Position numbers and translations under genes: made by a program
Source: Bifidobacterium breve
GTDB taxonomy: Bacteria; Actinomycetota; Thermoleophilia; Solirubrobacterales; Solirubrobacteraceae
DNA: 64,000 nt
Assembly: GCA_945878865.1 (NCBI GenBank)
Contig: CAMCUD010000002.1
Coordinates: forward strand, 248,001 to 312,000
Direction of reading: 5' to 3'
In this document: positions 55,761-58,835 of the stretch, one piece after another
How the letters are laid out: each line of letters starts with the position of its first letter
How positions within the stretch are numbered: the first letter of the stretch is position 1
Notes under the pieces: model-generated
What the model saw: only the letters and a program-made list of their open reading frames with translations
Databases searched by the model: none
What the model was told of the DNA's origin: nothing

Positions 55761-56275
55761 GCTCCACTGACGGTCGAGGCCTGTCTGCGCATGCCGATTG
55801 GATCAGTAGGCCGCCGTCGTGCCTCGATGGGGCCAGTCCGGCTGCCTGCCTTTGCTATCGAGCGATGAACTTCATCGCTGACGTTGGCAGACTGTGTGCT
55901 CGAAGCGGGTTGGGCGGTTCCGATTCGCGTCCACGAGTCCCCTCGTTCGAGGGTGCTGAGCGGGTTCGCGCCCGGCATGGCCAGCCGGATCTGTTCTCTC
56001 GCAGATCGCCGCGGGCGACGTCGGCGTCCGTTGGGACGAGTGTGAGCACTCGTTAGGGCACGTCACGACCGCCTTCCTCTCACGGCGGTTGGGTCGGTTC
56101 ACCGCGGCCCGGAGCCGCGGCGCTTGCCTTCGGTGCGGCCTGCCCCTCGCCTAACGGGGTACGCCGCGTCGTCGATGCGCACCGTACGGCACCGTCTGGC
56201 GAGTACAAGATAGGGTCTCCGTCAATCAGGTGATGGTGACTACTCACAGGCCCGCACGGGCGGAGAGGATCGAGG
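55761..56275. other. Gene-free stretch of atypical composition before the TIR gene
   Basis: About 515 nt without a convincing gene. Short open frames on both strands lack family features. The stretch has less GC-skewed third positions than the flanks, contains a 19-bp palindrome (55861-55879), a CCCTCG-TT-CGAGGG inverted repeat and GAGTG-TGAG-CACTC near 56036-56053. It probably carries the promoter of the TIR operon at its 3' end. I see no integrase, tRNA or direct-repeat attachment site. Confidence 0.6.
55861..55879. repeat. 19-bp palindrome
   Basis: AGCGATGAACTTCATCGCT has 9-bp perfect arms around one base, 100 nt after the dehydrogenase stop. It could be a terminator stem, a regulator site or a trace of the insertion boundary. 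Confidence 0.6.
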
Positions 56276-56647
56276 ATGGCCGATAAGAAGACCGTCTTTG
56301 TTGCGTTCGCTATCGAGGACGAGCGACAGCGCGACTTCCTCAAGGGCCAATCGCTTAGCCCCCGCGCCCCCTACGAGTTCATTGACATGTCTGTCAAGCA
56401 GGCGTACGACGAGGCGTGGAAGGACAAGGTGCGCACACGCATCCGGCGATCGGACGGAGTGCTTGTCCTGGTCAGTGCGAACTCCCTCACGTCCAGTGGT
56501 CAGAAGTGGGAGATCCAGTGTGCGAAGGACGAGGGTAAGGCGATCCGGGGAATCTGGGCGTACAAGGATGATCGGACGACTCTCGCGGGAGTCACGACGC
56601 TCACTTGGAGCGACGCCAACATCAGCGCGTTCATCGACTCTCTCTAG
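56276..56647 (+). CDS. TIR-like (ThsB/DUF1863-type) protein
   Basis: A 123-residue single-domain protein with the TIR-like fold of the MTH538/ThsB family. It starts [19 protein letters not shown] (first strand and helix), followed by [53 protein letters not shown]. The Glu in KWEIQCA (Glu79) is at the position of the NAD-processing glutamate in TIR and ThsB proteins. In Thoeris defence such proteins sense phage and make a cyclic ADP-ribose-type signal from NAD. Base composition and codon use differ from the flanking metabolic genes, suggesting transfer. The caspase-like gene starts 2 nt after its stop. Confidence 0.82.
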
Positions 56648-56649
56648 CC

Positions 56650-57642
56650 GTGCGCAAGGCACTGATCGTCGGCATCGACCACTACGAGCATCTCAGCTGC
56701 CTCAGCGGATGCGTGAATGACGCGCACTCCGTTCGGAGCGTCCTCGAAAGGCACGCGGACGGAACGCTGAACTTTGCCGGACCTCAATTGCTGACGGGTA
56801 CGAGCGGTGCTCAGCAGGTTCTGAAGCGCGACATGAAGGAAGCAGCGCGGGAGCTTTTCGCGGATGACTCTGAGATCGCGCTCTTTTACTTCGCCGGACA
56901 CGGCTACCTGGAAGACACAGGCGGATTTCTGTGTGCGAGTGACTCCGAGGCGGGCGATGATGGCTTGTCGCTACAGGAGTTGATGACCCTTGCACACGGG
57001 TCGAAGGCGCAGAACAAGATGATCGTGCTGGACAGCTGCCACAGTGGCGTAGCAGGCAATGACCCGATAGCGCCAGGACTGGCGGAGTTGTCTGACGGGC
57101 TAACGGTGTTGACCGCCTCGTCGCCTCATCAGTACGCGCTCGAGGTTCCTGGCGGCGGGGCGGGCGTCTTCACGAGTCTGTTCGTCGACGCGCTCAGTGG
57201 TGCGGCGGCGAACCTCGTGGGAGATATCACCCCGGGGAGCGTGTACGCCCACATTGATCAGTCGCTCGGCCCGTGGGCGCAGCGTCCGGTCTTCAAGACG
57301 AACGTGCGGACGTTCGTGTCCCTGCGCGAAGCGGAGTCTCCCATCGCGCTAAACGACCTACAGGCGATCACAACGCACTTTCCGACTGCGGACTTTCAAC
57401 TGCCATTGGATCCGTCGTACGAGCCCGAGCGGTCCGCCGACCAGGGTGAAGGCTCGGGGATCCCGCTGCCTGATCCTGAGCACACTGACACCTTTCGGGT
57501 ACTCCAGAGCTACGCCAAGGTGAACCTCGTGAGGCCGGTCGATGCGCCGCACATGTGGCACGCAGCGATGGGTAGCAAGTCCTGCGAGTTGACTGTGCTC
57601 GGCCAGCACTACTGGAACCTTGTCAACCAGGGGCTGATTTGA
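56650..57642 (+). CDS. Caspase-like (C14) protease, probable defence effector
   Basis: A 330-residue protein. Residues 1 to about 225 form a caspase-type fold: [14 protein letters not shown], then [13 protein letters not shown] with catalytic His84 and [14 protein letters not shown] with catalytic Cys130, and [14 protein letters not shown] linker rich in Pro/Glu/Asp leads to a C-terminal about 45-residue domain ([30 protein letters not shown] and following) that looks like a small helical or winged-helix module and may receive the activating signal. GTG 56650, 2 nt after the TIR stop, is chosen because it begins the fold directly. As in TIR-caspase immunity, a signal made by the TIR protein could activate proteolysis and stop growth. 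Confidence 0.85.
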
Positions 57643-57644
57643 TC

Positions 57645-57935
57645 ATGGCTAACCCGGACCGAGCAGCGGCACTACTCGGGAGCGAAGACCTCATCGAGGG
57701 ACTCGCTGCCATCGAACACGAGCGTTGGAGTCACTGGCAGCGATACCTCCACGCGCAGTGCACGCGGGCCCCGGACGGATCCCTCACGATCCCAGCCGAG
57801 CTCGTAGCGAAATGGTCAGCCCAATCGGCTACTCCGTACGTCGAGCTGTCAGAACAAGAGAAGGAAAGCGATCGGGAACAGGTTCGCCGTTATCTCCCAA
57901 AGATCGCTCAGTGTGTACGGGACTACGTCCCGTAG
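57645..57935 (+). CDS. RyR-domain-like small protein
   Basis: A 96-residue protein, mostly helical. The pattern LAAIEHERWSHWQRYLHAQC, ELVAKWSAQSATPYVELSEQEKESDREQVRRYLPKI resembles the prokaryotic RyR (ryanodine receptor repeat) domain: paired Trp/His/Glu-rich helices and the TPYxxLSExEKxSDR signature. RyR domains recur in nucleotide-signal conflict systems, where a ligand-sensing role has been proposed. The ATG at 57645 lies 2 nt after the caspase stop, making it the third gene of the operon. Composition is as atypical as in the two genes before it. Confidence 0.7.
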   Translation: MANPDRAAALLGSEDLIEGLAAIEHERWSHWQRYLHAQCTRAPDGSLTIPAELVAKWSAQSATPYVELSEQEKESDREQVRRYLPKIAQCVRDYVP

Positions 57936-57995
57936 TCGCGGCCGTCCCGCTGAAGGGACCGATGACGCAATGGAGGGATCGGCTGATGCTGTCTC

Positions 57996-58835
57996 TCAAC
58001 TGCGCAGCAACGCCTGGGCCGCCTGAGCCGCCGGCTGGCCTACCTCGACGCCACGAGATGCCCCCAGCGCGTTGCGCGCGCTGATCACCCCGTCGACGTA
58101 CGTGCTGTGCCCATCACCCATCCGCGCCGTCCGCGCGTCCACCGTCGCGCCGGCCAGCCCGAGCTCGTCGGCGATCGCCAGCCCCGCGATCCCCGAGTCG
58201 TCCTTTCCGCGTCCGCCGTCCGAGCAGATGAACCCGTGCGGCGCTACGTCGCGGAGGTAGGGGACCGCGCTCCGTCCCGTATGCCCTGCGGTGCACAGCA
58301 CGTTGCGCCCGCGATCTTCCGGCAGGCCGAACGCGATCGAGTCGGTGCACACGATCGACCGCCCCTCCTCGTTGGTGAACATCACCTCGCGGTTCGTCAC
58401 GTCGGCCGCGGCGCGCTGCGCCGGGTCGCGCTCGAGCAGCAGCCCTGCCGCCTCGCGCACCGGCATCCCGCGCGCCACGCCGCACGCCTCCGCCACCGCG
58501 TTGACGTAGGACACCACCGCGGTCCCGTACATGTCGACGCCGTCGCCGAGCGTCACCGTCGCGATGTCCGCCGCCGCTGCACCGATGCCCAGCGCTTCGA
58601 GGTACCAGAGGCCCGCGATGGCCGCGCCCTCCGGGCCGACCGCGCAGTCCACGCCGATCGCGCCGCGCGGGCGGCACTCGCCGACGAAGCGGGCGGGCAG
58701 GACCCCGGAGTACGAGGCGTTGACGACGACGTCGCGATCCCGGTTCTCCGGTCGCGCGTCGTACGCCGAATCTACCGCGACCACGCGGCCGCGCGGCGTC
58801 TCGAAGACGACCGTCTGCACCTGCTCTGAGGCCAT
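57996..58835 (-). CDS. Internally duplicated protein of unknown function in the FadR operon
   Basis: A 279-residue soluble protein that I cannot assign. It is built of two similar halves of about 130 residues. In the first, RDVVVNASYSG, RPRGAIGVDCAVGPEGAAIAGLWYLEALGIGAA and TLGDGVDMYGTAVVSYVNAVAEACGV align with RNVLCTAGHTG, APHGFICSDGGRGKDDSGIAGLAIADELGLAGA and RMGDGHSTYVDGVISARNALGASRGV in the second. The conserved Asp, Gly and Ser residues suggest a metal or phosphate site. AGGAG precedes the ATG, 8 nt after the stop of the FadR-type regulator, so it belongs to the enoyl-CoA hydratase-ligase-regulator operon. Confidence 0.75.
   Translation of the reverse strand: MASEQVQTVVFETPRGRVVAVDSAYDARPENRDRDVVVNASYSGVLPARFVGECRPRGAIGVDCAVGPEGAAIAGLWYLEALGIGAAAADIATVTLGDGVDMYGTAVVSYVNAVAEACGVARGMPVREAAGLLLERDPAQRAAADVTNREVMFTNEEGRSIVCTDSIAFGLPEDRGRNVLCTAGHTGRSAVPYLRDVAPHGFICSDGGRGKDDSGIAGLAIADELGLAGATVDARTARMGDGHSTYVDGVISARNALGASRGVEVGQPAAQAAQALLRS

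Follow-up and report, generated by a model that had tools for sequence, protein, structure and literature searches.

We analyzed a window of 64,000 nucleotides (nt) of DNA (contig CAMCUD010000002.1 of assembly GCA_945878865.1, positions 248,001 to 312,000) and detected in it, at window positions 56276-57935, an operon of three genes encoding a TIR-like protein, a caspase-like protease and a small protein related to the RyR (ryanodine receptor) domain. We suggest, as a fairly probable reading, that the operon is a type IV Thoeris-like module with a built-in RyR brake, which binds and perhaps cleaves the immune signal, and that phages carry the RyR gene alone as a counter-defence. The evidence consists of the genes themselves with their conserved catalytic residues, a gene order repeated across phyla, carriage on plasmids, and the opposite contexts of the RyR gene, which lies with the caspase gene on plasmids and without it on viral contigs. 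The assignment of the locus to Thoeris-type TIR-caspase modules is well supported by sequence comparison. The TIR-caspase core matches known type IV Thoeris, and the new part of the system is the third, RyR-like gene.

TIR-caspase core of the operon

The genes are located on the + strand in the order TIR-like (56276..56647, 123 amino acids (aa)), caspase-like (56650..57642, 330 aa, GTG start) and RyR-like (57645..57935, 96 aa, ATG start), and both intergenic gaps are 2 nt. The starts were read as GTG 56650 and ATG 57645; the mechanical list of open reading frames (ORFs) begins the caspase-like frame at a TTG inside the TIR gene and the RyR-like frame at a TTG at 57639. The first-pass annotation, made from the letters alone, had described three genes 2 nt apart with Glu79, His84 and Cys130 as the key residues, compositionally unlike their neighbors, and the ORF coordinates, the residue numbering and the composition all agree with this (GC content of ~0.60-0.64 across 56250-57999 in 500-base windows, against ~0.66-0.75 on both sides). 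Its ThsB-type TIR and caspase calls, and the Thoeris-type reading built on them, were borne out by Pfam scores above the cut-offs and by PADLOC matches.

The TIR-like protein is a predicted synthase of a signal made from nicotinamide adenine dinucleotide (NAD+). It was matched by Pfam ThsB_TIR PF08937 (1.7e-7, 32 bits; cut-off 21.2) and by the PADLOC ThsB model (2.4e-7), which also matched 26/31 members of the TIR family alignment A3. Against the PDB, the A3 profile (31 rows) detected 8fz9 'TIR' (2.5e-9) and 9uv0 'ThsB' (4.7e-4). Glu79 (codon 56510..56512), the conserved TIR glutamate, is kept in 63/64 TIR rows, the exception being L058, a TIR ORF with its C-terminal part out of register (L-numbers are labels of individual loci compared with the window locus). 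In our reading of the A3-PDB alignment, Glu79 is aligned with a Glu of the ThsB chain 9uv0.

The caspase-like protein was matched by Pfam Peptidase_C14 (7.9e-17, 62.1 bits; cut-off 21.4), PADLOC caspase (4e-20), PHROG 18397 (1.3e-77 over residues 2-328) and NCBIfam caspase_w_EACC1 (2.4e-27, yet under that model's cut-off). The predicted catalytic residues His84 (codon 56899..56901) and Cys130 (codon 57037..57039) are each present in 71/71 distinct caspases, the window protein counted. In the AlphaFold2 model (predicted local distance difference test, pLDDT, 88.1), residues 1-228 align with the MALT1 paracaspase 8v4x_A (Z 22.1, root-mean-square deviation 3.2, 202 aligned), and also with plant metacaspases and human caspases; the structure search barely probed residues 231-330. 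The protein comprises a protease domain at ~1-230 and a conserved C-terminal domain at ~231-330, the latter being a predicted receptor for the signal. A strongly conserved motif starting LQ was found at residues 285-324 (window 57502-57621), a possible signal-receptor site, and a similar stretch is present in the more distant TIR-linked caspase L178. Used alone against plasmids, the C-terminal domain matched 44 records, which are caspase genes or unannotated or hypothetical stretches, and one match also overlaps a gene annotated as TIR; none of these 44 records showed the domain clearly fused to a different effector.

The caspase-effector variant of Thoeris that the first-pass annotation had mentioned does exist: in type IV Thoeris, according to two papers that cite it, the TIR protein makes N7-cADPR (cADPR, cyclic ADP-ribose), which activates a caspase-like protease (PMC12847820, PMC13373217). 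Compared by description, the window operon has in common with type IV the ThsB-type TIR gene and, directly after it, the gene of a caspase-like protease that keeps its catalytic residues; the additional, conserved RyR-like gene that comes next sets it apart. In Thoeris types I and II, the ThsB-type TIR signal synthase is shared with the window operon but goes with a SIR2-SLOG or TM-macro ThsA; the effector here is a caspase, and neither of the other two window genes matches ThsA, their only matches being to caspase and, weakly, to RyR. The description of type IV Thoeris as a TIR-caspase system is reportedly that of Rousset et al. (Science, 2025, doi 10.1126/science.adu2262).

RyR-like protein and its conserved residues

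The third protein is weakly assigned, by sequence, as a divergent relative of the RyR domain. Pfam RyR matched 24/34 family members at E<=0.01 (best 8e-5). The family profile A4 (44 rows) detected in the PDB the RyR1 chimera 6uhi (7.5e-8, reached by adding up weak stretches), further chains of RyR1/2/3 (1.7e-4 to 1.7e-3) and the bacterial RyR-like 3nrt (0.003). The model of the protein has a pLDDT of 95. The window protein was not recognized by PADLOC or NCBIfam, which gave one weak match (0.006) among 34 relatives. We use the label RyR-like because the window protein alone is below the Pfam cut-off, the family profile matches RyR and the fold searches are unsupportive. The RyR-domain-like call of the first-pass annotation accordingly stood, weakly, at the level of the family profile and of the recurrence of the gene in 60/80 loci, and failed for the single-protein Pfam score.

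According to PMC13232231, RyDEP (gp78 of phage DyoEdafos) cleaves 2' and 3'cADPR using H75 and D117, with W78 stacking on the adenine and H100 holding the phosphates; of eight phage RyR homologues tested, six bound the signals and none cleaved them, despite high conservation; and the characterized phage RyR proteins block Thoeris signals. In the alignment of the window protein with RyDEP, His25 (codon 57717..57719) corresponds to the catalytic H75, Trp28 (57726..57728) to W78 and Asp76 (57870..57872) to the catalytic D117. His25, Trp28, Trp31, Trp57 and Asp76 are invariant over 51 distinct operon RyR rows, and His25, Trp28 and Asp76 are invariant in A4 as well. The link to RyDEP is drawn from PF02026 and this residue alignment, because the fold searches gave nothing convincing.

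As in RyDEP and the phage sponges (PMC13232231), the window protein is small and related to the RyR R12 domain, its His/Trp/Asp ligand or catalytic residues align with theirs, and it has relatives on phages, apart from any TIR-caspase pair. Unlike RyDEP, its gene sits within a bacterial defence operon, the family does not have the long N-terminal region of gp78, and the signal concerned is probably N7-cADPR rather than 2' or 3'cADPR.

Opposite contexts of RyR on plasmids and viral contigs

In a collection of 72,556 plasmid records, the RyR protein was matched in 21, and the caspase gene was detected within ~3 kb in 21/21 (a C-terminal remnant only in NZ_AP017657.1). It is immediately upstream of RyR in 19/21; in the remaining two, RyR lies 253 nt upstream of the caspase gene and 3 kb downstream of it, respectively. 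The RyR protein is annotated as 'hypothetical protein' in 19/21 records and has no listed gene in the other two. The caspase itself was found on 52 plasmid records, 29 of them typed conjugative, and 20 of the 40 listed records (of the 52) belong to the 21 RyR records. On the Pseudomonas aeruginosa plasmid CP136985.1 (L164, 7620-9283), the three-gene module is flanked on either side by trb conjugation genes, the two sets being in opposite orientations.

Viral contigs gave the reverse picture. Among 31 RyR loci, 30 were without caspase and TIR by profile in the available flanks (three of these, L095, L123 and L124, start within 350 nt upstream, where a caspase could not be seen), and one, L098, has both. 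Conversely, close caspases were found at 18 viral loci (L125-L142, L125 being the L098 contig; L126, L141 and L142 end at or inside the caspase), with TIR in 17/18, some weak, and RyR in 1/18. The Fisher test of 21/21 plasmid against 1/31 viral RyR loci gives 1e-13, an indicative value, as it treats related records as independent and the three short-flank contigs as lacking caspase.

Phage hallmark genes were found beside RyR in three of four contigs, encoding a tail sheath (L094, 3.5e-32), a head protein (L097, 1.9e-12) and an endolysin (L105, 3.9e-45); the fourth, L110, gave only a helicase-loader match (6.5e-7) and no clear hallmark. In the phage collection, RyR was matched in ten records, nine of which come from Microcystis cyanophages, with two genomes entered twice. 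In the isolated phage Ma-LMM01 of Microcystis, RyR is gp44, and neither caspase nor TIR is nearby in this one cyanophage that was inspected. The tenth record (L092, MT835687.1, 'Bacteriophage sp.') has all three genes and is 99.4% identical to the Sphingomonas locus L011 over 7.7 kb; it is probably not a phage and was treated as bacterial.

Gene order among bacterial relatives

Contigs of GTDB species were scanned with the caspase, giving 140 relatives; we retained the top 80, a choice that favors close kin. By profile, 58 of these 80 loci have TIR-caspase-RyR, 15 TIR only, 2 RyR only and 5 neither, so that the RyR gene is downstream of the caspase in 60/80. The first-pass annotation had asked whether the three-gene order recurs in other genomes, and had counted a lack of co-occurrence against its reading; the order was found in 58/80 loci, with RyR right after the caspase in 19/21 plasmid records, and the genes do co-occur. 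The start codon of RyR and the stop codon of the caspase overlap in 23 of the 60 loci with RyR (TGATG/TAATG). The 58 three-gene loci are assigned to Pseudomonadota (26), Actinomycetota (24), Acidobacteriota (3), Spirochaetota (1), Bacillota (1) and Cyanobacteriota (1), with two unassigned; assignments of metagenome-assembled genomes to these six phyla may be wrong. As an example, a 7.3 kb segment is common to L002 and L004 (binned as Acidobacteria and Spirochaetaceae) and to Sediminivirga luteola L003 and is 99.97% identical, by recent transfer or mis-binning.

Four close operons (L005, L032, L078 and L081) have a TIR protein at least 60% identical and an intact caspase, with RyR absent from the 1,767 to 6,000 nt of sequence downstream of the caspase. 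The first-pass annotation had assigned no role to the third gene; we amend this to what looks like an accessory brake rather than a required step, because neither caspase nor TIR was found in the available flanks of RyR at 30/31 viral loci (three of them with too little upstream sequence) and RyR is missing in these four operons.

TIR type was considered as an explanation for the presence of RyR (48/4 against 1/11 by type; Fisher 2e-8). This association was dismissed, as the caspase tree gives one to two independent contrasts and nothing beyond shared descent.

Searches that started from RyR used thin samples of chromosomes. In the source phylum (396 genomes), they detected the window, a full operon (L083), a decayed operon (L084/L086) and a prophage-like locus (L085/L087) that adjoins ORFs read as lysin and integrase. 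At the decayed locus, an open RyR-like gene (G197 contig 93, 6422-6787, - strand) is beside the C-terminal end of a caspase only, and TIR was not detected within 16 kb. In Pseudomonadota (398 genomes), the seed and L090, a TIR-caspase pair with RyR on the opposite strand, were found; a further match, L091, is crossed by stops and was discarded as noise. In Cyanobacteria (339 genomes), the search returned the seed Leptolyngbya locus and one 5e-4 match in a 436-codon frame.

Variation was also observed on the TIR side. In the Nocardia loci L024 and L037, a large ORF (919 and 975 aa), read as TIR-like, replaces the small TIR gene beside the caspase, downstream or upstream of it. Extra TIR-like ORFs, partly by our own reading, adjoin the TIR-caspase pair in L041 (7055-7516), L081 (3783-4262) and L098 (1910-3862); RyR is absent in the former two and present in L098.

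Trees and co-divergence of the three genes

The RyR tree (84 rows, 89 columns) is weakly resolved, with bootstrap not settled and root unknown. It places 48/49 operon rows in one supported group (97/90), which also holds the stand-alone viral L097, the L098 system and the bacterial L086 and L090. The RyR of the Leptolyngbya operon (L077) groups with phage copies. This topology fits RyR having joined TIR-caspase operons at least twice, and perhaps one capture of an operon-type RyR by a phage (L097, weakly placed).

Distances were correlated over 47 operons, a set without L077 and the broken L058. In these, RyR distances follow those of the caspase (r 0.68; 0.61 with the caspase cut to 110 columns) and not those of TIR (r 0.18, partial -0.03). 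The RyR-caspase correlation is 0.73 with L077 kept and 0.85 within Actinomycetota; within Pseudomonadota, the values are 0.68 for RyR-caspase and 0.18 for RyR-TIR. As RyR divergence follows the caspase and not TIR, the TIR genes seem to be exchanged more freely, the caspase and RyR traveling together. Such co-divergence fits a partner that shares the ligand of the caspase or touches the caspase.

Genomic setting of the operon

The source genome (4.96 Mb, 79 contigs) has a single copy of the caspase gene, which was found in 1/61 genomes searched and is absent from 60/60 relatives (completeness varied; 48/61 have a completeness of 90% or more and a contamination of 5% or less). The low-GC island was probably acquired horizontally, because the caspase gene is single-copy and present in 1/61 genomes only. 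The flanking genes resemble those of fatty-acid or acyl-CoA catabolism, as read from their translations only, with no family search. In an empty-site comparison with five relatives, the downstream neighbor had no match and the upstream neighbor had paralogue-level matches only (37-42% identity, best per genome), so no insertion boundary can be drawn. The search of the module flanks for repeats gave none convincing.

Discussion

By homology, phage infection would lead the TIR-like protein to make, from NAD+, a signal of the cyclic ADP-ribose type, with N7-cADPR as the likeliest product. The signal would bind the caspase-like protein, probably via the C-terminal domain, and the His84/Cys130 protease would be switched on, cleave cell proteins and halt the infection. 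The new part of the proposed mechanism is the RyR-like protein, which may bind, and perhaps hydrolyze, the same signal; it would set a threshold and prevent accidental activation, as a host-encoded sponge or off-switch. Phage carriage of RyR apart from the system is as expected if RyR blocks the signal. The conserved, unannotated RyR-like gene probably encodes a brake on the signal, and a signal-binding brake is favored because of the residue alignment with RyDEP and the stand-alone pattern in viruses.

Several results weigh against this reading. The window protein alone scores 0.0099 with Pfam RyR PF02026 (16.5 bits, under the 27.4 cut-off); its model gave no RyR fold among the chains compared in the PDB (VIA) and no viral match at E<=0.001 in BFVD; and profile A4 gave no significant match to the single RyDEP sequence (E 0.33). 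RyDEP His100, the phosphate-binding residue, has no His counterpart in the RyR-like family alignment, and the protein is hence not classed as RyDEP. The ligands shown for phage RyR proteins (PMC13232231) are 2' and 3'cADPR, not N7-cADPR. RyR is missing in 20/80 near caspase loci (among them L067 and L068, with 265 and 191 nt after the caspase, possible contig-end losses). In the source phylum, 8/396 genomes have the caspase profile at 1e-20, and RyR is found in three, one decayed, the other five being judged on ~1.5 kb flanks. RyR is mostly lacking from the more distant caspase relatives and occurs chiefly in the sub-lineage closest to the window locus. For RyR and TIR, the correlation reaches 0.42 with L077 kept and 0.50 within Actinomycetota.

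The tight coupling seen in the start/stop overlaps (23/60), the tracking of the caspase by RyR divergence (r 0.68) and the nearby caspase in all 21 plasmid RyR records would suit a positive component on which full caspase activation depends (a co-receptor, adaptor or infection sensor), the phage copies being decoys or unrelated. We consider this unlikely, as the four close operons have an intact caspase and no RyR, 30/31 viral RyR loci are without caspase or TIR (three with too short flanks), and the characterized phage RyR proteins block Thoeris signals (PMC13232231). The His/Asp pair aligned with the catalytic dyad of RyDEP, invariant in the 51 operon rows and A4, raises another possibility, a RyDEP-like glycosidase that would convert the cyclic signal to ADP-ribose, ending the signaling and sparing NAD+ precursors. 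This, too, appears improbable to us: cleavage of the signal was seen with none of the eight phage homologues, although six bound it (PMC13232231); His100 is absent; and the N7 bond and the ribose-ribose bond are different substrates.

Two simpler explanations were also weighed. The loci without RyR (20/80 near loci and 5/8 source-phylum caspase genomes) could indicate an ordinary type IV Thoeris of two genes accompanied by a small unrelated passenger, in which case RyR would have no role in the pathway; the caspase near RyR in 21/21 plasmid records, the gene order common across phyla and the invariant ligand residues make this highly implausible. The 52 plasmid records with the caspase, 29 typed conjugative, would be compatible with a programmed-death or stress device that serves an end other than phage defence, for instance plasmid maintenance. 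Such a device is very unlikely in our view, as the putative antidote occurs on phages without the rest of the module, and the TIR-caspase pair resembles a system with reportedly demonstrated anti-phage activity.

For the origin of the built-in brake, we tentatively propose, as a possibility that we hold with considerable doubt, that RyR is a counter-defence protein which hosts have made into a regulator: a phage-type signal sponge was captured beside TIR-caspase operons at least twice, in the clade that holds most operons and, independently, in Leptolyngbya, where RyR clusters with the phage sequences, and it serves today to restrain the TIR signal from within the operon. Type III CRISPR ring nucleases, which hosts encode to switch off a second messenger and of which viruses have immunity-blocking counterparts, resemble the proposed RyR brake in role but differ from it in fold and signal. 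We know of no described host-encoded terminator of a Thoeris signal, and an open-literature search, which did not cover two key papers, the one on type IV Thoeris among them, found none. A literature search of titles, abstract starts and passages, with the same two papers outside its scope, found no report of a TIR, caspase and RyR operon. If the type IV Thoeris paper already reports the RyR gene, the operon is a known variant and only the contrast between phage and host is left.

How bacteria keep TIR-driven suicide systems quiet or switch them off is a largely open question, and the operon offers a small conserved candidate off-switch, unannotated in plasmid records. The opposite contexts of RyR on plasmids and viral contigs make the brake idea directly testable. 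The operon also links RyR domains to NAD-derived signals suspected of acting on ryanodine receptors. If the capture of a phage-type sponge is correct, this would be the first host-encoded Thoeris-signal terminator known to us; it would show RyR domains acting together with cADPR-type signals in a bacterium's own immune pathway, which would bear on the long-argued link between cADPR and the animal ryanodine receptor.

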